Part shown: piece by piece, positions 41,656-50,593 of the stretch
Position numbering within the stretch: the first letter of the stretch is position 1
Layout: every line of letters begins with the position of its first letter
Origin: Alicyclobacillaceae bacterium
GTDB taxonomy: Bacteria; Bacillota; Bacilli; Alicyclobacillales; Alicyclobacillaceae
Assembly: GCA_019683615.1 (NCBI GenBank)
Contig: JADGIC010000001.1
Location: 1-55,664 of the forward strand
Direction of reading: 5' to 3'
DNA: 55,664 nucleotides
Notes under the pieces: generated by a model
Told to the model about the DNA's origin: nothing
What the model saw: only the letters and a program-made list of their open reading frames with translations
Databases searched by the model: none
Program-made: the position numbers and the translations under genes

Positions 41656-42441
41656 TCAAGGGTCCGCGAGGACAACCGCGATCCCCTGCAGTTCCGGACT
41701 TGCCGCCGGGAACTTCGTCATGACCAGCGGGTCGTGCCCGGGGACAACCCGCTGCTCATCACCGGCCAGAGCACGCAGCTGGTCGAACGCGCCATACATG
41801 TCTGCCAGGTTGTGAACAATGGAAAATGGCCGATCCTCCAAGAAGTTCCTGTAGAAGTGGGCAGCGTCCGAAGCCAATACCAAGGGACCAGTTGCCGTCT
41901 GCACGCGAACGACCTGCAGGCCCGCGGAGTGTCCGCCGACGCGGTGAACGCTGATGCCTGGCAGGATTTCTTCAGCTCCGTCGACGAAGCGCAGGCGCCC
42001 TTCGAAATTCATCTGCACACAGGAGACCACGTCATTCACCTCGACGAGACCGCGAAACGCCCCTCGCGACGCATAACGGCCTGTCCAGAATGCCATTTCG
42101 GCGTCCTGAACGTAAAACCGGGCGCCCGGCAGTTTGTCGATGTTGCCGGCGTGATCGTAGTGGAAATGAGTGAGGACGACATGGTTGACCATTTCTGGCC
42201 GAATGCCTAGGAGTGAGAGGGCGGCAATCGGGCAACGAAGGTGCTGTCGCCCCCGTTTCGCGGCAACCTCCGCGGTGAAGCCCGTGTCGATGAGCACCGT
42301 GTGCGAGTCCGACCGGGCGACCCAGACATAGTAACTGAGCGGCATCGGGTTGGTCTCGTGCGGATCCGCATGTCCGTAGAAGTTTTCGTGGCTCACGGCA
42401 TGCTTCCTCGCGTATTCCACGGCATACACCTGGTAGTGCAC
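41656..42441 (-). CDS. Metallo-beta-lactamase-fold hydrolase, N-acyl-homoserine-lactonase-like
   Basis: 261-residue MBL-fold enzyme with a complete dinuclear metal site: THFHYDH (residues 91-97), GGHSAG, LASDAAH and PGHDPL. The N-terminal region (HYQVYAVEYARKHAVSHENFYG) and the length match the lactonase group that includes quorum-quenching AHL lactonases and other lactone or ester hydrolases. In this neighbourhood (P450, dehydrogenases) a catabolic lactonase is an attractive alternative to quorum quenching. The GTG at 42441 follows GGGGAGGG. It is the last gene of a three-gene minus-strand group after the HIBADH-type gene. Confidence 0.85.
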   Translation of the reverse strand: MHYQVYAVEYARKHAVSHENFYGHADPHETNPMPLSYYVWVARSDSHTVLIDTGFTAEVAAKRGRQHLRCPIAALSLLGIRPEMVNHVVLTHFHYDHAGNIDKLPGARFYVQDAEMAFWTGRYASRGAFRGLVEVNDVVSCVQMNFEGRLRFVDGAEEILPGISVHRVGGHSAGLQVVRVQTATGPLVLASDAAHFYRNFLEDRPFSIVHNLADMYGAFDQLRALAGDEQRVVPGHDPLVMTKFPAASPELQGIAVVLADP

Positions 42442-42509
42442 ACCTCTTCCCTCCCCGGACAACGCGTGCCTCGACCAACAGTTACTCGTCACCAATGTAG
42501 TTGAACGCC

Positions 42510-43439
42510 CTACGGCTGACGCTTCACTTCTGCACTGGCCCATTCCTCAAACAACCGGACAATCTCGGTCGTGTCTGACGCAAACCCGAGCTTCTCCTGC
42601 GCCAGTTTGAAGATTTCGCGCACGTTGCTGCCCAGCCACATCGACACGCCCAGCCGGTCTGCCTCCGCCAAGCAGAGGCTCAAGTCTTTGTACATCAACC
42701 CGGTCTTAAAGCCGTAATCAAAGGTACGGTCCAGCACAGCCGCCGGAAATTTGTCCAACGTGGCACTGTTGCGACCGCTGCTGACATTGAGGATCTCGAG
42801 CATCGTCTGCGGCGACAAGCCTGCCTTGACGCCGAGCACCATGGCTTCCGAGGTGGCCACCAAGGCGACGGCTGACAAATAATTGTTTGCCAGCTTCAGC
42901 ACCTGCGCTTGCCCGACCTTCGGTCCCACGTAAAACACTTTGTTCCCGATGACCTGAAGGACTGGCAACAGCGCCTCATACTCCTGGCGGCTGCCGGAGA
43001 CCATCACGCTGAGCTTGCCGTCTCTTGCGCCCGGGACGCCGCCGCTGACCGGTGCATCCAACACGGTGATGCCGCGCCCGCTCAACGCCTCCCCAATCTC
43101 TTCGGACACCAGCGGCCCCGTGGTGGACAGATCCACGTATGTCCGCATCCGCTTGGCGGTGTACAGGCCGCCCTCACCGACGGCGACCGCCCTCGCCGCG
43201 GCCGGGCTGGGCAAGCTCACCAACACCGTGTCCGCTTGGTCGCCCACCTCTGCGACCGACCGGGCCACCACCGCCTGCGGAAAACGGCGGAACGGCTCCC
43301 GCGCCTCTTCACGGACGTCGTACACGACGACGTTGTAGCCGTGCTCCAGCAACCGCCTGGCCATGTGTTCACCCATGTTGCCTAAACCGATAAACCCCAA
43401 CACAGGCGCCAAAGCGTCCACCCCGTTCGGGCCGGTCAA
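42510..43439 (-). CDS. NAD(P)-dependent dehydrogenase of the 3-hydroxyisobutyrate dehydrogenase family
   Basis: About 309 residues: Rossmann motif GFIGLGNMGEHMA, the substrate block DAPVSGG and the catalytic lysine in VLKLANNYLSA. Such beta-hydroxyacid dehydrogenases oxidise 3-hydroxyisobutyrate, tartronate semialdehyde, 2-hydroxyglutarate or similar; the specific substrate is not visible. The start is uncertain: TTG at 43439 would overlap the stop of the upstream gene as TTGA with GAGGG close by, GTG at 43421 begins closer to the Rossmann strand. Located in a unit with the carboxymuconolactone-decarboxylase-type and MBL genes. The neighbouring glycolate oxidase genes make a tartronate-type substrate conceivable. 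Confidence 0.85.
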   Translation of the reverse strand: MTGPNGVDALAPVLGFIGLGNMGEHMARRLLEHGYNVVVYDVREEAREPFRRFPQAVVARSVAEVGDQADTVLVSLPSPAAARAVAVGEGGLYTAKRMRTYVDLSTTGPLVSEEIGEALSGRGITVLDAPVSGGVPGARDGKLSVMVSGSRQEYEALLPVLQVIGNKVFYVGPKVGQAQVLKLANNYLSAVALVATSEAMVLGVKAGLSPQTMLEILNVSSGRNSATLDKFPAAVLDRTFDYGFKTGLMYKDLSLCLAEADRLGVSMWLGSNVREIFKLAQEKLGFASDTTEIVRLFEEWASAEVKRQP

Positions 43440-43822
43440 CGACCCTCGTTTTGTAACTCCGCAAGCACCCGCTTGCCAACCTTGAAACTCTCCATGCCAG
43501 CCGGAATCCCGCAGTACACCGCCACCTGCAGGAATACCTCGCAAATCTCCTCCGGCGTGCAACCGTTGGCCACGGCACCGCGGATGTGCAACGCCAACTC
43601 CTCCGGCCGGTTGAGCGCACTGAGCATCGCGAGGTTGATCAGGCTGCGCTCTTTGCGGGTCAAACCCGGGCGCGTCCACACGGTGCCCCAACAAAACTCT
43701 GTCGTCAGTTCCTGCATGGGTCGATCAAAGTCCGTCACATTTTGCAAAGACCTCTCCACATGGGCTTCGCCAAGCACCGCCTTGCGCACCGCGAGACCTT
43801 GTTGAAACCGTTCACTGGTCAT
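43436..43822 (-). CDS. Carboxymuconolactone decarboxylase family protein
   Basis: 128-residue all-helical AhpD/PcaC-like protein. The PcaC-type block TTEFCWGTVWTRPGLTRKERSL, followed by ELALHIRGAVANGCTPEEI and AVYCGIPAGMESF, identifies 4-carboxymuconolactone decarboxylase relatives; it lacks the AhpD CxxC redox pair. In aromatic degradation PcaC decarboxylates a muconolactone, but many family members act on other substrates. The ATG at 43822 follows GGAGGTTAAC. First gene of the minus-strand unit, with a stop codon overlapping the next gene. Confidence 0.88.
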   Translation of the reverse strand: MTSERFQQGLAVRKAVLGEAHVERSLQNVTDFDRPMQELTTEFCWGTVWTRPGLTRKERSLINLAMLSALNRPEELALHIRGAVANGCTPEEICEVFLQVAVYCGIPAGMESFKVGKRVLAELQNEGR

Positions 43823-43913
43823 CCCGTTAACCTCCGCTGAGTTTCTTGAACGTGCCAACAACTCCCATGGACGCCGCCCCGCAACACTCCAACCGTTCGC
43901 GAACGTCCTAATC

Positions 43914-43937
43914 TATGATATTCTATGGCTTATCATA
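43914..43937. promoter_or_regulatory. Inverted repeat between divergent genes
   Basis: TATGATA and TATCATA lie 10 bp apart in an AT-rich island between the divergent carboxymuconolactone-decarboxylase-type and split-barrel genes. Each arm can serve as a -10 (TATGAT) for one direction, so the repeat may be a pair of divergent promoters, a regulator site, or both. -35 matches are weak. Confidence 0.4.
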
Positions 43938-43992
43938 AATCTAGACATGATCACACCGAGCCTCTCGCAGGGCTCAAGGAGGGGGTCTGCAC

Positions 43993-44358
43993 GTGGATCT
44001 GCAGCAACTCACAGCCGTTAAAGAGTGGCTGGAGCGCACGGAGCACCGCGCCATCGTCATTTGCAGCGGAGAACACCAGTACCCAAACGCCTCCGCCCGA
44101 ACCACTCAGGTATCGGACGACGGGTACTTGCTGTTCACCGAGGACCTGTCCAGCCGTTCCGGCATCTTGTTGTACAACAGCCCTCATGTCCTGATTCTCG
44201 TCACGGACGGCGTGGAAGGGTTGAAGATCAAAGGGACGGCCGCGTTTCCTGACGTACCCGGCGGCGCGGGCGAGAGTCCGTCACCGGCTTCGCCGCCGCC
44301 AGTCAAGACACAAGTGCGCGTCGCCGTCGAGGAAGTATTCCCGTTCCGCTTGCGGTAG
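43993..44358 (+). CDS. Putative FMN-binding split-barrel (pyridoxamine 5'-phosphate oxidase-like) protein
   Basis: A 121-residue protein whose beta pattern fits the split-barrel flavin family: RAIVICSGEH, YLLFTEDLSSRSG, NSPHVLILVTDGVEGLKIKGTAAF and a C-terminal VRVAVEEVFPFRL strand. A short Ser/Pro linker interrupts it near residues 90-100. The match is by pattern only; cofactor (FMN, heme or F420) and reaction cannot be told. The GTG at 43993 follows AAGGAGGGGG. Divergent from the three-gene dehydrogenase unit. Confidence 0.6.
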   Translation: MDLQQLTAVKEWLERTEHRAIVICSGEHQYPNASARTTQVSDDGYLLFTEDLSSRSGILLYNSPHVLILVTDGVEGLKIKGTAAFPDVPGGAGESPSPASPPPVKTQVRVAVEEVFPFRLR

Positions 44359-44382
44359 TTCCGCAGGCCGGCCCAACAGGCC

Positions 44383-44396
44383 CCGGCTCGAGCCGG
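44383..44396. terminator. Short palindromic stem after the split-barrel gene
   Basis: CCGGCTCGAGCCGG is a perfect 14-bp palindrome located 24 nt after the stop codon; it could fold into a small stem. No T-run follows, so a terminator role is tentative. Confidence 0.3.
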
Positions 44397-44487
44397 ACCC
44401 GGCGATCACGTCACCGGCGCGCCGCCTCACTTGTGCGCCTCAGGGACCTCCCTGGACGCAACGCAACCTTTTTGTCTTTTCGGCCAA

Positions 44488-44516
44488 TTGCAAAAAATCG
44501 GTCATATCGATATGAT
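44488..44516 (+). promoter_or_regulatory. Promoter of the aldehyde dehydrogenase gene with overlapping palindrome
   Basis: TTGCAA (44488-44493) and TATGAT (44511-44516) have exact 17-bp spacing. The perfect palindrome TCATATCGATATGA (44502-44515) covers the spacer end and the -10, as expected for a repressor operator. The leader would be about 15 nt. Confidence 0.65.
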
Positions 44517-44537
44517 CGGGGTGGGAGGATGAGGCCC

Positions 44538-46004
44538 ATGGTAACCGAATCCGTCACAGTCAACGCCGTGATCAACGGCGAGGAAGTGCCTGCAGCGCAG
44601 CGCTATCCACGAGAAAACCCGGCAAACATCAAGGAAGTTGTCGGATACGGTCCAGTGACCACCCGTGATCAAGCGGTGCAAGCCATCGAGGCCGCCGCCG
44701 CCGCATTCGACAGCTGGGCTCGAGTTCCACTCGCAGAACGGGTGGCGCACCTGCGCCGGGCGGCCGACAAGGCCGAGGCTGCTGCCGAGGAGTTGGCGCA
44801 CCTGCTTGCCCGAGAACACGGCAAGCCGTTGAACGACGCTCGCGGCGAAGTCAGGGGCGCGGTCGTGTGGCTGCGTTACGCCTCGGATCTGGCTTTGGAA
44901 CACCTGAAGGAACAGGTGCACAGGACGGAGCGTGGACGCACTATCATCACCCACGACCCGGTTGGCGTCGTGACCGCCATCACGCCGTGGAATTTCCCGC
45001 TGGTTCTCTCCATGAACAAGGTGGCGCCAGCCTTGGTGGCCGGCAACACGGTGATCCTCAAGCCGAGTCCCTTTGCGCCGCTGGCGGTCAGCCGCTTGAT
45101 CAAAATGGTGGCCGAAGAGTTCCCGCCCGGTGTGCTGAACTTGGTTCACGGGGACGCCGACGTCGGCGTGGAACTGACGTCCCATCCGAAGGTCGCAAAA
45201 ATCGCCTTCACCGGCAGTACCAAGACCGCCCGCGCGATTTTGCGCTCTGCCGCAGACACCATTAAGAATGTGACCTTGGAACTGGGTGGCAACGACGCAG
45301 CCATCGTGCTTCCGGACTTCCGGTGTGACGACGCCGAAGCGTTCCAGCGGTTCGTGATGGCCAACTTCCTGAACGCAGGCCAGATCTGCATGGCCGCCAA
45401 GCGCGTCTACATTCATCGCAGTATTTGGAAACGGTTTATCGACAATTACGTGTCCGCCGCCAACCAATGGATCGTCGTCGGTGACCCGTTTGAGGAAGGC
45501 GTGACTGTGGGACCGGTCAACAATCGCAACCAGCTTGAATTTGTGCGTTCCCTTGTCGATGGTGCGCGCCAGCGCGGAGCGGAGGTCGTCCCCTTGGGAC
45601 GCATCACGGACAGCGAACACTTGGAACGCGGCTACTTCATGCAGCCAGCCCTGGTGCTCGGTGCGCAACCGGACGACCCCATCGTCACCGAAGAACAGTT
45701 CGGTCCGGCAGTTCCGTTCCTGCCGTACGATGACGAAGAAGAGGTCATCCGCCAGGTCAACGACAGCATCTATGGCCTGACAGGTTCCGTGTGGGGCGAT
45801 GAGGAGCACGCACTGCAGGTTTCACGCCGCATCCAAGCCGGCACGACGATGGTCAACACCGCATCCGTGCTGGGCACGGACCTGCGCTTTCCGTTCGGCG
45901 GCGTGAAACAGTCGGGCATCGGCCGCGAGCATGGTCCGGACGGTTTGTTGTCGTACACCGAGATTCACGTGTGCCAAATCCCCGACCTGCCGCCATCCCG
46001 ATGA
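44538..46004 (+). CDS. NAD(P)-dependent aldehyde dehydrogenase
   Basis: 488-residue ALDH superfamily enzyme. Visible catalytic residues are Asn152 (TPWNFP), Lys175 in the coenzyme strand (ILKPSP), Glu248 (LELGGND) and the nucleophile Cys284 (GQICMAAKR). The family also shows FTGSTKTAR and the C-terminal FPFGGVKQSGIGREHG. It is closest in style to benzaldehyde/succinate-semialdehyde type dehydrogenases; exact substrate unknown. The ATG at 44538 follows GGAGG with 9-nt spacing, chosen over an ATG 9 nt upstream that is too close. Stands alone between split-barrel and MFS genes, with an operator-like promoter. Confidence 0.93.
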   Translation: MVTESVTVNAVINGEEVPAAQRYPRENPANIKEVVGYGPVTTRDQAVQAIEAAAAAFDSWARVPLAERVAHLRRAADKAEAAAEELAHLLAREHGKPLNDARGEVRGAVVWLRYASDLALEHLKEQVHRTERGRTIITHDPVGVVTAITPWNFPLVLSMNKVAPALVAGNTVILKPSPFAPLAVSRLIKMVAEEFPPGVLNLVHGDADVGVELTSHPKVAKIAFTGSTKTARAILRSAADTIKNVTLELGGNDAAIVLPDFRCDDAEAFQRFVMANFLNAGQICMAAKRVYIHRSIWKRFIDNYVSAANQWIVVGDPFEEGVTVGPVNNRNQLEFVRSLVDGARQRGAEVVPLGRITDSEHLERGYFMQPALVLGAQPDDPIVTEEQFGPAVPFLPYDDEEEVIRQVNDSIYGLTGSVWGDEEHALQVSRRIQAGTTMVNTASVLGTDLRFPFGGVKQSGIGREHGPDGLLSYTEIHVCQIPDLPPSR

Positions 46005-46034
46005 CGATGGAAATTAGACCCGTTCTGTTGAACA

Positions 46035-46076
46035 CAGCCGGACGCTGGGCGGGTTCCCCCGCTCAGCATCCGGCTG
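46035..46076. terminator. Intrinsic terminator between ALDH and MFS genes
   Basis: A 19-bp stem with two G-T pairs (CAGCCGGACGCTGGGCGGG / CCCGCTCAGCATCCGGCTG) and a 4-nt loop, followed by TTTG on the plus strand and preceded by the convergent MFS stop codon at 46100. Confidence 0.75.
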
Positions 46077-46099
46077 TTTGACTGCGCCCGAAGCTTTGT

Positions 46100-47449
46100 T
46101 TACGCGCGGGGCGCGCGGGTCGTGGCGTGAACCGCCGGCCGAGGCGCCGGGCTTTCCAACCGCATCAATATCATCGCGCACATCGCGATGAGAGCCGGAA
46201 CCGCAGCGACGAAGAACACCCCGCTCATGCCCATTTTCATCGAAACCAGCCACGCCCCCATCAGCGGACCGGCGATGCCGCCCAAGCGCCCCACGCCGAG
46301 CGCCCAACTCACGCCCGTCGAGCGCACGGCCGTCGGGTACACGGTGGCCGCCAACGCGTTCAAGCCGAACTGCGCTCCCACAATCCCCAACCCGTGCATG
46401 AACAAAGCGATCATCACCGGCCAAAACCCGCGGACGTTCCCCATCAGCACGAGACCGACGATACCCAGCAGGAACCCGCCAACCAGGACCCACTTCGGGT
46501 TGCGATGGTCCGCCCCAATCCCCAGCAACAGGCCGCCGATGGTTGCGGCGCCTTCCACCACAATCAACCCCCAGATGGCCTGGCCCAAGGAGAAGCCCGC
46601 GTTGGTCAAAATCACCGTCAGCCAACCATTGACAAGGTATTGGGTGAGCAGGTTGCAGGCAAACATCACCCACAACAGAATCGTGTTGCGGGCCTGGCCT
46701 TCGTCAAACAAGTGACGGACGGGAAATCCCTTGGGATTTCTCTCGTCGACGTAAAACGATTCGTCACCCGTAAACCCTGCCGACGCGTCAATCTTGCGGA
46801 GAATGGCCGCCACGCGCCGGGAGGACCTCCCGCGGACCACGAGAAACCGAATGGACTCCGGCAGAAGGCCCATGGACAACAACCCGAGCACAATCGCCGG
46901 AACTCCGGCCACACCAAAAAACATCGCGCGCCACCCGTACGACGGGATGATCCATTGCGCAAGCAACGACACCACCACGCCGCCAATCGTCACCCCCATG
47001 AACGCGATGCTCACCATCGTCTTCCGGATGCGGCGCGGCGAGTACTCATCGGCCAGCGGGATGACGTTGGGCAACGAGCCCCCCACGCCGATGCCGACGA
47101 TAAATCGCAAGAGCAGCAACTGCTCGACGTTGGATACGTACGCCGTCAGCAACGAGACGATGCCGTACAAAAAAGTGGACACAACGACAATCAGCTTCCG
47201 CCCAATCCGGTCCGCCAGCGGTCCGGAAATGAACGCGCCCACCATGATGCCGAGGAGAAATAAGGACGACAGACTGCCGAGCTGCAAGGGTGAGATATGC
47301 CATTGTTTGGCAATAACCGGAGAGACGCCGCCCGTGATCACAATCTCGATGCCGTCAAACGTCACAATCAGTCCGGCGAGGATGACAACCCAAATCTGCC
47401 GAAGACTCACAGGCCGGGAGTCGATCCACTGCGACACGTTCACCTGCAC
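46100..47449 (-). CDS. MFS transporter, aromatic acid:H+ symporter (AAHS)-like
   Basis: Major facilitator protein of 449 residues with twelve hydrophobic segments. The first helix carries FDGIEIVITGGVSP, the position of the charged/aromatic signature of AAHS symporters such as PcaK and BenK, and the cytoplasmic loop has GPLADRIGRK, the MFS loop 2-3 motif. A long central loop follows helix 6. Likely importer of an organic (aromatic or terpenoid) acid for the pathway encoded around it. The GTG at 47449 follows GGAGG with 7-nt spacing. Divergent to the P450 gene with a shared regulatory region. Confidence 0.85.
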   Translation of the reverse strand: MQVNVSQWIDSRPVSLRQIWVVILAGLIVTFDGIEIVITGGVSPVIAKQWHISPLQLGSLSSLFLLGIMVGAFISGPLADRIGRKLIVVVSTFLYGIVSLLTAYVSNVEQLLLLRFIVGIGVGGSLPNVIPLADEYSPRRIRKTMVSIAFMGVTIGGVVVSLLAQWIIPSYGWRAMFFGVAGVPAIVLGLLSMGLLPESIRFLVVRGRSSRRVAAILRKIDASAGFTGDESFYVDERNPKGFPVRHLFDEGQARNTILLWVMFACNLLTQYLVNGWLTVILTNAGFSLGQAIWGLIVVEGAATIGGLLLGIGADHRNPKWVLVGGFLLGIVGLVLMGNVRGFWPVMIALFMHGLGIVGAQFGLNALAATVYPTAVRSTGVSWALGVGRLGGIAGPLMGAWLVSMKMGMSGVFFVAAVPALIAMCAMILMRLESPAPRPAVHATTRAPRA

Positions 47450-47486
47450 GTGAAACCCTCCCTTGCTCCAAACGGTTTGTTGATTT

Positions 47487-47514
47487 ATCATAAAATTCAA
47501 TATCCAAAGGACAA
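47487..47514 (-). promoter_or_regulatory. Promoter candidate of the MFS gene
   Basis: TTGTCC (47509-47514) and TATGAT (47487-47492), 16-bp spacing, on the minus strand. The -10 is embedded in TTTATGATAAA, a near-palindrome resembling the -10 region of the carboxymuconolactone-decarboxylase-type unit. Confidence 0.45.
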
Positions 47515-47580
47515 GGGGTCAATGACACACAAATCGAAATAGAAGCTATAGACGTTGTCGATACCGGAACCAAATTTCTC

Positions 47581-47609
47581 TTGACCGTACTTTTCGCAAG
47601 CATCAAAAT
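47581..47609 (+). promoter_or_regulatory. Promoter candidate of the P450 gene
   Basis: TTGACC (47581-47586) and CAAAAT (47604-47609) at 17-bp spacing, about 55 nt before the P450 start. Confidence 0.45.
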
Positions 47610-47671
47610 TAAGAGAAGGAACCGATGAGCATAAGGAATCGATTGAACCCCAAAGGAAGCCAGGAGGATGG

Positions 47672-48901
47672 TTGTCATTGTCACCGGTTGAGGTGTTCCC
47701 GCCATCCATTCCCCCGCATGTACCGCCCGAGTTGGTCGTGGATTTCGACTTCGTCCACCCCAAAGGAGCCGAACGCGACCTGTTCCTCGCTCTCAAACGC
47801 CTTCACGAGGGCCCGGACATCTTTTGGACGCCCCGCTACGGCGGCCACTGGGTGGTCACGCGAGGGGACGATATTCGCCGCATCCTGTCCGACTACGAGA
47901 CGTTTTCATCCGAAGCGGTGTTCATCCCCCGGCGGGAACGCCCGCGCATCGTACCCCTGGAGGTCGATCCGCCGGAACACATGGCGTACCGCAAGCTGAT
48001 TGCACCGGCGTTCACGCCCAAAGCCATCGCCCAATGGACAGACCTGGCCCGGACCTTGGCCATTGAACTGATTGACGGATTTTACGCGCGGGGAGAATGC
48101 GAGTTCATGTCGGAATTCGCATTTCAACTCCCCATCATCATCTTCATGAAAATGTGTGACCTGCCCTTGGAGGACCGCCCGCAGCTGCTGCGTTGGGTCG
48201 GCATGAACATCCGCCCCGAGAAGCCCGGCGACGAACAGGAATCTTTCCGGCACATGAACGAATACATCCGCAATCTGATGGCGCAGCGTCGGTCGCAACC
48301 GGGTGATGACCTGGTCAGCCAGATCTTGCACAGCGAAGTGTTTGGCCGGCCTCTCAACGACGATGAGGCGTTCGGATTGATTAACGGCCTGTTGGGCGGA
48401 GGATTGGATACTGTTGCCTCCACGATGGGCTGGATCGCCCGCTTCCTCGCTCAAAGTCCGCAACACCGGCGACAGTTGATTGAGGAGCCGGACCTGTTGT
48501 GGAACGCGATTGAAGAACTGCTGCGTCGTTTCAGCGTGCCCAACATCGCTCGGGTCGTCGCCAAGGACACCGTCTACAAAGGCGTGTTCATGAAGAAAGG
48601 CGAACAGGTTCTGCTGTCAGCGTGTCTGCACGCCATGGACGAAGCGTGTTTCGAACGTCCGCTGGACGTCGATTTCCGGCGCCGGAACGCCCGGAACCAC
48701 TCGACCTTCTCGCAGGGACCGCACCGCTGCCCTGGCGCCACCTTGGCGGTGGCAGAACTCAAGATCTTTCTCGAAGAATGGCTTCGCCGGATCCCCGATT
48801 TCTGGATTCGACCGGGTGAGTGCGTCGAAACGGCCACAGGCATCGTGCACGGGGTGAAGTACCTCCCGTTAGTCTGGGACCCGCAGGCGTCAACATCATG
48901 A
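47672..48901 (+). CDS. Cytochrome P450, P450cam (CYP101)-like
   Basis: 409-residue soluble bacterial P450. The heme-ligating cysteine is Cys353 (FSQGPHRCPGA), the I-helix acid-alcohol pair is Asp246-Thr247 (GLLGGGLDTVAS), and the K-helix ExxR is at 282-285 (EELLRR). The whole chain aligns by eye with Pseudomonas P450cam: PPHVPPELVVDFD at the start, GGHWVVTRG, FSSEAVFIPR, GGLDTV, KKGEQVLL, RIPDFWI and PLVWDP at the end. P450cam hydroxylates camphor, so a monoterpenoid or similar cyclic substrate is possible, but no redox partner genes are adjacent. TTG at 47672 follows AGGAGG with 10-nt spacing. Co-transcribed with the VOC gene. Confidence 0.95.
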   Translation: MSLSPVEVFPPSIPPHVPPELVVDFDFVHPKGAERDLFLALKRLHEGPDIFWTPRYGGHWVVTRGDDIRRILSDYETFSSEAVFIPRRERPRIVPLEVDPPEHMAYRKLIAPAFTPKAIAQWTDLARTLAIELIDGFYARGECEFMSEFAFQLPIIIFMKMCDLPLEDRPQLLRWVGMNIRPEKPGDEQESFRHMNEYIRNLMAQRRSQPGDDLVSQILHSEVFGRPLNDDEAFGLINGLLGGGLDTVASTMGWIARFLAQSPQHRRQLIEEPDLLWNAIEELLRRFSVPNIARVVAKDTVYKGVFMKKGEQVLLSACLHAMDEACFERPLDVDFRRRNARNHSTFSQGPHRCPGATLAVAELKIFLEEWLRRIPDFWIRPGECVETATGIVHGVKYLPLVWDPQASTS

Positions 48902-48967
48902 GGGGGCGTTCCGGTTCGGCAGCCGGTGGTTCGAATCGGCCAAATCGGCGAAAGGAGGATCAGGGGG

Positions 48968-49462
48968 TTGGAAAAACCGGTGTTTCCACAATTGCTCCAA
49001 ATCTGTGTGGTCGTCCCCGACCTGGATGAGGCCATGCGGACGTACAACGATGTGTACGGCATCGGACCTTGGCATGTGTTCGAGTTCAACCCGGACACCG
49101 TCAGCGACATGTACATTCGGGGTGAGCGGGTGGACTATTCCATGAAACTGGCCATCTGCGACTTCTACCACGTCCAACTGGAACTTATTGAACCGACCGA
49201 TAACCACAGCATCTACGCGGAATTTCTGCGCACTCACGGGCCTGGTTTGCACCATATGGCGTTTGCCACAGACAACTTTCACGAGACGATTGAACGCATG
49301 GCCGCCCGCGGCAACCAAGTGGTGCAAAGCGGCAATTTCCAGGGAAACGGATACGCATACATCGACACGTTGAAGGATCTTGGTTTTTTGTCGGAGATTT
49401 ACAAAACCCCCCCAGGATTCGAGCACCCTGCTCCGGTTCGCGTGTATCCGGCCGGGCGGTAA
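48968..49462 (+). CDS. VOC family (glyoxalase/dioxygenase fold) protein
   Basis: 164-residue protein with two beta-alpha-beta-beta-beta units. The metal site usually has His/Glu in each half: here Glu in QLELIEP, His in LHHMAFA and Glu in SEIYKTP are visible, but the first-strand residue is Gln (LLQICVVV) where His is usual. Could be an epimerase, lyase or glyoxalase-type enzyme, or a substrate-binding protein. The TTG at 48968 follows AAAGGAGG with 8-nt spacing. It is 66 nt after the P450 gene on the same strand, suggesting it acts on the P450 product or a related metabolite. Confidence 0.85.
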   Translation: MEKPVFPQLLQICVVVPDLDEAMRTYNDVYGIGPWHVFEFNPDTVSDMYIRGERVDYSMKLAICDFYHVQLELIEPTDNHSIYAEFLRTHGPGLHHMAFATDNFHETIERMAARGNQVVQSGNFQGNGYAYIDTLKDLGFLSEIYKTPPGFEHPAPVRVYPAGR

Positions 49463-49503
49463 CCGCCGGCCGGTCACGGTCGAACCTCCACGTCACGCCA
49501 TCC

Positions 49504-49539
49504 GCCGGCCGGTCGCTGACACCCGAGAGACCGGCCGGC
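49504..49539. terminator. Hairpin after the VOC gene
   Basis: GCCGGCCGGTC and GACCGGCCGGC (11-bp arms, 14-nt loop) lie just beyond the VOC stop; a third copy of the left arm at 49465-49475 offers an alternative pairing. Located between convergent genes. Confidence 0.55.
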
Positions 49540-49550
49540 CTGGCCCGCGT

Positions 49551-50468
49551 TCATCCCCGTCCTTTTGCGTGCGGGTGCAACACCGCGAACACCGCTCTCA
49601 ATCCGGGAGTGTCGATGCCGTGCGATTCCGCCAGCCGCAGCAGCACCCCCTGCAGGCTGTCCAGCTCGAGCGGCAACCCTTTGTCGAGATCCCGGTGCAT
49701 GCTGGACGTCATCCCCGGCGGAAGCGAGTGGATCCAGTCTGTTACAGTCTGCGCAGGGTTGCCGGGCAAGCCGGGGTAGCACGCGTGGACGATTTTGGCC
49801 ACCTCCCCGGTCACTTGCTCCAACAGGACAGACGCCGCTTCGTCGGCCAAAACATCGCCTATCGGGCGGCGAACGGCCGCCGTCAGACCGCTCAGCACAG
49901 CCAGACAGGCGTACTTCGTCCACATGTCGGACAGAATCGCTTCACTCAACTTGACGCGAAAGGCTCCCTGCCGCAGGGTATCCTCCACTTCAGCCAAGCG
50001 AGAGCGGTCCGTCTCGGCCAACGGCCCGAAGACGATGTGGTGTAGACGGCTGGTGTGCACCACATCGCCGTGTGCATCGAGCGTGGCTTCAATGTGGCAG
50101 GTACCTCCCAGCAGTTGGCTGCCAGCCACTACACTGCGCAGACGTTCCAAGTGCTCAATGCCGTTGAGCAGCGGCAATACGAGTGCACCCCGTTCGGCGA
50201 AGCTGCGGATAGCGGGAAGGCAGCCTTCGATATGATAATTTTTCACACATAACAGGACCAGGTCTGGCCGTTCCACGTCATCAGCCGACACAGCCAGGGT
50301 TGGAGCCAGTGCAAAGTCGCCATAGACGCTTCGCACGCGCAAGCCGCGCTCCTGCAGCCGGCGATAGCGCTCCGGCCGAACCACAAAAGTCACCGGGACA
50401 CCGTGTTGCGCAAGGCGACCGCCAAAGTACCCTCCGACCGCTCCCGCTCCAACGACAACCACATGCAT
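49551..50468 (-). CDS. Ketopantoate reductase family protein (PanE/ApbA)
   Basis: NADPH-dependent reductase of 305 residues with the Rossmann motif VVGAGAVGGYFGGRL, the substrate region LLNGIEHLERL, the conserved lysine in SDMWTKYACLAVLSGLTA and the Glu-containing C-terminal RPIGDV and PLELDSLQG blocks. PanE makes D-pantoate for coenzyme A, but this superfamily also includes other 2-keto-acid and amine reductases. Here the neighbours are catabolic rather than panBC, so the true substrate is open. The ATG at 50468 follows GAGGTTGGCG. Single gene divergent from pckA. Confidence 0.85.
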   Translation of the reverse strand: MHVVVVGAGAVGGYFGGRLAQHGVPVTFVVRPERYRRLQERGLRVRSVYGDFALAPTLAVSADDVERPDLVLLCVKNYHIEGCLPAIRSFAERGALVLPLLNGIEHLERLRSVVAGSQLLGGTCHIEATLDAHGDVVHTSRLHHIVFGPLAETDRSRLAEVEDTLRQGAFRVKLSEAILSDMWTKYACLAVLSGLTAAVRRPIGDVLADEAASVLLEQVTGEVAKIVHACYPGLPGNPAQTVTDWIHSLPPGMTSSMHRDLDKGLPLELDSLQGVLLRLAESHGIDTPGLRAVFAVLHPHAKGRG

Positions 50469-50593
50469 CGCCAACCTCTCCTCTCCCGCTCCCTAACCGC
50501 CAGCCGGCGCTGCACACCGCGAGCAACCCGCCGGACATGACAGGCGCTGCTCAAAAACCCACACTCATTTCGCGAAATGATGTAACTTATATG

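Follow-up and report, generated by a model that had tools for sequence, protein, structure and literature searches.

Relatives of the cytochrome P450 P450cam (CYP101A1) serve as tools for selective C–H oxidation. In the P450cam system the redox partners are encoded next to the P450, and Tyr96 of the enzyme hydrogen-bonds the camphor carbonyl. The active-site residues of CYP101A1 include Tyr96, Phe87, Leu244 and Val247 (PMC6158249), and membership in a CYP family is assigned at more than 40% identity to a member (PMC7438502). On the side of lactone degradation, the functional analogue is blcABC (attKLM) of Agrobacterium, which combines an MBL lactonase, a hydroxy-acid dehydrogenase and a semialdehyde dehydrogenase, and in which BlcC opens gamma-butyrolactone (PMC5924552). 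The literature searched contained nothing relevant on a named pathway that joins a carboxymuconolactone-decarboxylase-family protein (CMD), a HIBADH-type dehydrogenase and a lactonase. Here we analysed a stretch of 55,664 nucleotides from an Alicyclobacillaceae bacterium (contig JADGIC010000001.1, the window), in which a 9-kb locus consists of ordinary members of such families in an unusual combination. We consider the chances about even that this locus is a mosaic catabolic island adjoining the native pckA locus, with a P450 and probably a VOC protein in its upper part and a lactone/hydroxy-acid module in its lower part.

Genes, promoter-like sites and borders of the locus

From left to right, the genes encode an MBL-fold hydrolase, a HIBADH-type dehydrogenase, a CMD, a PNPOx-like protein, an aldehyde dehydrogenase (ALDH), an MFS importer, the P450, the VOC protein and an ApbA-like reductase. 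In profile searches, every gene named in the sequence-only reading was found intact and in its stated family; start codons were refined by eye with the help of ribosome-binding sites and related proteins, and for the P450 and VOC genes they are uncertain by a few codons. The first three genes lie co-directionally on the minus strand with operon-like spacing, in agreement with the unit proposed earlier. The MBL-fold lactonase-like hydrolase (41,656–42,441; Pfam Lactamase_B, 1.6e-17; 261 amino acids from a GTG start) keeps the metal motif HxHxDH (HFHYDH at residue 92) and is 61–63% identical to proteins from two genomes of the same family, but it reaches only 58–67 bits against the equivalogs of AHL and gamma-butyrolactone lactonases (AiiA, AttM and AidB), whose cut-offs are 360–390. 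The beta-hydroxyacid dehydrogenase (42,510–43,439; NAD_binding_2 and NAD_binding_11; 309 amino acids) has the SGG and K..N motifs and falls below the cut-off of every named equivalog, including 3-hydroxyisobutyrate dehydrogenase TIGR01692 (200.9 versus 291.6 bits), which makes it a member of the HIBADH/tartronate-semialdehyde reductase superfamily only. The CMD (43,436–43,822; 128 amino acids) is of the PcaC type, scoring 160.1 bits against a cut-off of 155.7 for TIGR02425 (decarb_PcaC). Its gene overlaps that of the dehydrogenase by 4 nt (TTGA), where the TTG start of the latter runs over the stop codon of the former.

A small PNPOx-like protein (43,993–44,358, plus strand; Pfam PNPOx_N, 1.4e-4, below the gathering score) stands between the CMD and ALDH units. 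The ALDH superfamily protein (44,529–46,004, plus strand; Aldedh, 1e-145) is below the cut-off for all named equivalogs and about 32–36% identical to the ALDHs at related loci; it was evidently exchanged or separately recruited, given that the identity to the ALDHs of related modules is only about 35%. As had been noticed from the sequence, an MFS importer (46,100–47,449, minus strand) is divergent from the P450 gene; it resembles the aromatic acid/H+ symporters (AAHS), but with 320.8 bits against TIGR00895 (cut-off 418.55) it is AAHS-like only.

Before the ALDH gene there is a promoter-like site, TTGCAA-17-TATGAT (44,488–44,516, plus strand; a consensus match only), and its -10-like TATGAT is overlapped by the perfect palindrome CATATCGATATG (44,503–44,514). 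The palindrome behind the operator-like promoter described earlier is real, but it is not unusual for the window, since in 42 of 100 shuffles some 12-mer differs from it at no more than two positions. A box upstream of the CMD gene, ATTTATGATAA (43,930–43,940, minus strand), has a near-copy, TTTTATGATAA, upstream of the MFS gene (47,485–47,495, minus strand) and could be a shared operator or a -10 element. With one mismatch allowed, the window holds three matches, two of them overlapping, where 0.12 are expected, and none of 100 shuffles reaches three; since the pattern was picked after inspection and contains the -10-like TATGAT, we take it as a hint only. A shared GntR operator was rejected, the box not being found upstream of CMD in relatives. 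There is no regulator gene within the island.

The right flank is formed by an ApbA/PanE-like (ketopantoate-reductase-like) reductase (49,551–50,474, minus strand). In three relatives that have no island (G012, G009 and G021; 58–63% identity), pckA adjoins this ApbA-like gene, so the right border is placed between the VOC and ApbA-like genes. The reductase was dropped as a pathway enzyme because it travels with pckA, and pckA itself, cited earlier as part of the pathway context, is likewise ordinary host DNA, whose neighbour is conserved. The Bacilli background was upheld: the window carries Com_YlbF and DUF1292 genes, and its pckA is up to 80% identical to genes from genomes of the same family. 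In view of this pckA match and of an estimated genome contamination of 0.64%, contamination of the contig was rejected as unsupported. The base composition gives no clear signal of a break (GC 60.2% in the island versus 63.2 and 63.6% on its two sides; GC3 0.69–0.81).

A CYP101-related P450 with a VOC neighbour

The P450 (47,672–48,901, plus strand) was classified as CYP101-related by PDB match, pairwise alignment and tree. Its best PDB match is P450cam (E 1e-91; residues 12–406 against 13–410 of the chain), and the end-to-end alignment claimed from the sequence was confirmed, with Cys353, Asp246 and Thr247 opposite Cys357, Asp251 and Thr252. Its best solved relatives all belong to CYP101 (P450cam, CYP101D1 and D2, then J2, C1 and D5, at 280–311 bits), while P450cin scores 203 bits in the PDB search. 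The identity to P450cam (163 of 394 positions, 41.4%, in the pairwise and 41.1% in the multiple alignment) is a borderline case of the 40% rule, and in the tree the window P450 does not group with P450cam. It forms a clade (support 99/100) with enzymes from a Rhodospirillales MAG (L021) and Paenibacillus validus (L022), whereas P450cam falls with L096 and L097 among Sphingomonad CYP101 enzymes in a separate clade (support 100/99); the tree settles both clades but not the order of the deeper forks.

A pathway for camphor or a simple monoterpene, like that of the Pseudomonas CAM plasmid, would fit the 41.4% identity and the end-to-end alignment with P450cam, and the window P450 does keep the Asp-Thr acid-alcohol pair, the heme Cys loop, Arg112, Arg299, His355, Phe87, Ile395 and Val396. 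The pocket, however, is changed at Phe98 (to Ile), Thr101 (Leu), Leu244 (Gly), Val247 (Gly), Val295 (Pro) and Asp297 (Ile), and Tyr96 is missing, its position being a gap in the multiple alignment and Pro91 in the pairwise one, with a two-residue deletion in the loop. Because Tyr96 is lost and the enzyme lies outside the P450cam clade, a camphor-type substrate is unlikely from the sequence, and we regard the whole camphor pathway as very improbable and discarded it on these two grounds. The redox partners point the same way: in contrast to the P450cam system, neither putidaredoxin nor putidaredoxin reductase homologs adjoin the P450 of this Bacilli host, and the host genome (85.6% complete) contains no Reductase_C protein.

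The absence of ferredoxin and ferredoxin reductase within the 9 kb was confirmed, and the suggestion that the electron donor is encoded elsewhere is plausible: the host genome has two Fer2 (2Fe-2S) ferredoxins, both on contig C165, one Fer4_15 protein on contig C40 and several Pyr_redox_2 flavoproteins. On C165 (locus L035, 10,608–15,213) the two 2Fe-2S ferredoxins flank creatininase-like, PqqC/TenA-like, ALDH and GlcG-like genes (named by eye), and nearby GntR-type regulator and ChrA-like genes are found, possibly another uncharacterised catabolic unit.

The VOC-superfamily protein (48,926–49,462, plus strand; Glyoxalase_4, 9.7e-21) is encoded 24 bp downstream of the P450 gene, with which it is probably co-transcribed. 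Its likely metal ligands are Q25, E86, H110 and E157, the last three of which are invariant in five relatives; no consistent function emerged among its relatives in the PDB and on plasmids.

The rarity of a P450cam-like enzyme in Bacilli was borne out: the window's own genome gave the sole match at E 1e-60 among 400 genomes of the class and at E 1e-70 among 399 of the phylum, two samples that overlap. A smaller set comprised the genome of the window plus 60 relatives; 21 of these 61 encode at least one P450, and the top match in a relative shows 35% identity. The closest enzymes are those of Paenibacillus validus (65%) and the Rhodospirillales MAG (63%), and horizontal spread of the clade is likely. 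In P. validus (locus L022, 8–6,764) genes for an oligopeptide-type ABC transporter and an SDR form an operon-like series whose last member is the sister P450; in the Rhodospirillales MAG the neighbours are SDR, HIBADH-like, luciferase-like and Rieske oxygenase genes; and a Paraburkholderia relative sits among genes of acyl-CoA catabolism. Scattered neighbourhoods in relatives, named earlier as a refuting observation, were thus largely what was seen for the P450 and VOC genes. The occurrence of this CYP101-related clade in two Bacilli lineages means a wider host range for this enzyme type, because CYP101 is absent from the main text of a Firmicutes survey that grouped 712 P450s of 229 species into 14 families (PMC7438502).

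Recurrence of the CMD-HIBADH(-MBL) module

The pair of CMD and HIBADH genes recurs as a module in other Bacilli as well as in Proteobacteria, sometimes together with MBL, ALDH, transporter and GntR genes. A CMD at E 1e-35 or better was found in 18 of the 400 class genomes, counting that of the window; 19 CMD loci from 17 other Bacilli genomes were inspected, and at 12 of these a HIBADH-type gene is in the same fetched stretch. An MBL of 49–53% identity joins the pair at three loci (L052, L053 and L077), and there is one further MBL at 28%. The tightest relatives are the modules of the Bacilli genomes G217, G404 and G035, with CMD 72–76% and HIBADH 66–68% identical to those of the window and with MFS and ALDH genes alongside; MBL genes belong to the modules of G217 and G404, while G035 has its MBL gene on a separate contig. 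The CMD-HIBADH-MBL trio is also carried by Marinobacter and Variovorax plasmids, whose MBL proteins, like those of G217, G404 and G269, are 47–53% identical to that of the window. Unlike the window, neither these plasmid modules nor those of G217, G404, G035 and G269 contain a P450cam-like or VOC gene. At L052, L053, L076 and L077 the CMD-HIBADH pair is accompanied by ALDH, MFS or TRAP transporter, GntR, MBL, second CMD-like and SCP2-like/hydrolase genes. The GntR, second CMD-like and SCP2-like/hydrolase genes of the related modules are missing in the window.

The Rhodococcus plasmids pGD02.2.2 and pLP337 have a CMD of 62–65% identity whose gene overlaps HIBADH, together with P450s, a lactonase and an MFS gene, and pGD02.2.2 has in addition a succinate-semialdehyde-type ALDH. 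Their P450s and MBL are, however, only 25–28% and 28% identical to those of the window, and the clusters additionally encode a maleylacetate reductase, while their VOC protein is longer. Compared with blcABC, the window has the CMD in addition, its MBL scores 58 bits where the AttM cut-off is 390, and the dehydrogenase of blcABC belongs to a family other than the HIBADH type. The recurrent module offers a concrete target for substrate assignment.

Possible pathways and alternative readings

The catabolic role and the P450cam relationship put forward in the sequence-only reading are both supported, but its "full set" for one pathway is more than the evidence shows. A single conserved operon spanning all 9 kb was rejected, because relatives split the cluster into at least two pieces. 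A mosaic in which a rare P450-VOC pair adjoins a common lower module fits the evidence better than a single dedicated pathway. It may well be, though we would not bet on it, that the parts are chance neighbours, a horizontally acquired P450-VOC pair, possibly detoxifying, beside a separate lactone/hydroxy-acid module, perhaps with the ALDH and MFS genes. None of the relatives examined has a P450-VOC pair, and in none of them do the P450 and the CMD-HIBADH-MBL genes occur together as orthologues (the CMD and HIBADH of the Rhodospirillales MAG being only 35–37% identical); none of the 19 CMD loci in other Bacilli has a P450cam-like gene, and the CMD occurs in 18 class genomes where the P450 occurs in one. 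Against mere neighbourhood, the island genes are compactly arranged and all belong to one functional class, and P450s stand beside CMD-HIBADH in other genomes too.

It is improbable that the CMD is a true PcaC whose unit completes protocatechuate degradation by the beta-ketoadipate (pca) branch. Its match to TIGR02425 and an intradiol dioxygenase on host contig C166 would agree with this, but the island is without pcaB, pcaD and pcaGH, the partners of the CMD are HIBADH and MBL rather than pca genes, and the C166 dioxygenase adjoins an apparent HpaB-type hydroxylase.

For the mosaic island, support comes from the intact catalytic residues of the P450, MBL and HIBADH together with the CMD score above the PcaC cut-off, from the recurrence of the CMD-HIBADH(-MBL) module in Bacilli and on the Marinobacter and Variovorax plasmids, from the well-supported P450 clade with its changing neighbours, from CMD-HIBADH pairs near other oxygenases elsewhere (P450s in Rhodococcus; Rieske and luciferase-like genes in the Rhodospirillales MAG), and from the ferredoxins and other aromatic-degradation genes of the host. 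It is weakened in that proximity is the sole link between P450-VOC and CMD-HIBADH-MBL, that the ALDH and MFS genes have no clear orthologues in the related modules, and that the island lacks a regulator, the shared promoter box tying only CMD and MFS.

A catabolic reading of the island is reasonable, and the island probably serves growth on some cyclic or branched compound. We tentatively suggest, as one possibility, an uncharacterised aerobic Bacilli pathway in which the new-clade CYP101-related P450 and the VOC protein feed the widespread module, the compound being neither camphor nor an aromatic of the protocatechuate pathway. The MFS protein would take up an organic acid that is probably cyclic or branched, unless the substrate diffuses in; the P450, served by ferredoxins encoded elsewhere, would hydroxylate it, and the VOC protein might isomerise, hydrate or cleave the product. 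Judging from fold families and the recurrence of the module, the MBL hydrolase could then open a lactone, and the PcaC-type protein could act on a carboxylated lactone or a beta-keto acid by decarboxylation or rearrangement. Oxidation of the hydroxy acid by the HIBADH-type enzyme would give either a semialdehyde or a keto acid, and the ALDH would oxidise the aldehyde, with the resulting acid passing into central metabolism.

Aromatic degradation elsewhere in the genome is likely because of the stretch at the end of contig C166 (L075, 4,708–9,386), where the intradiol dioxygenase and the hydroxylase are accompanied by a V4R/XylR-like regulator, the names of the last two being given by eye.
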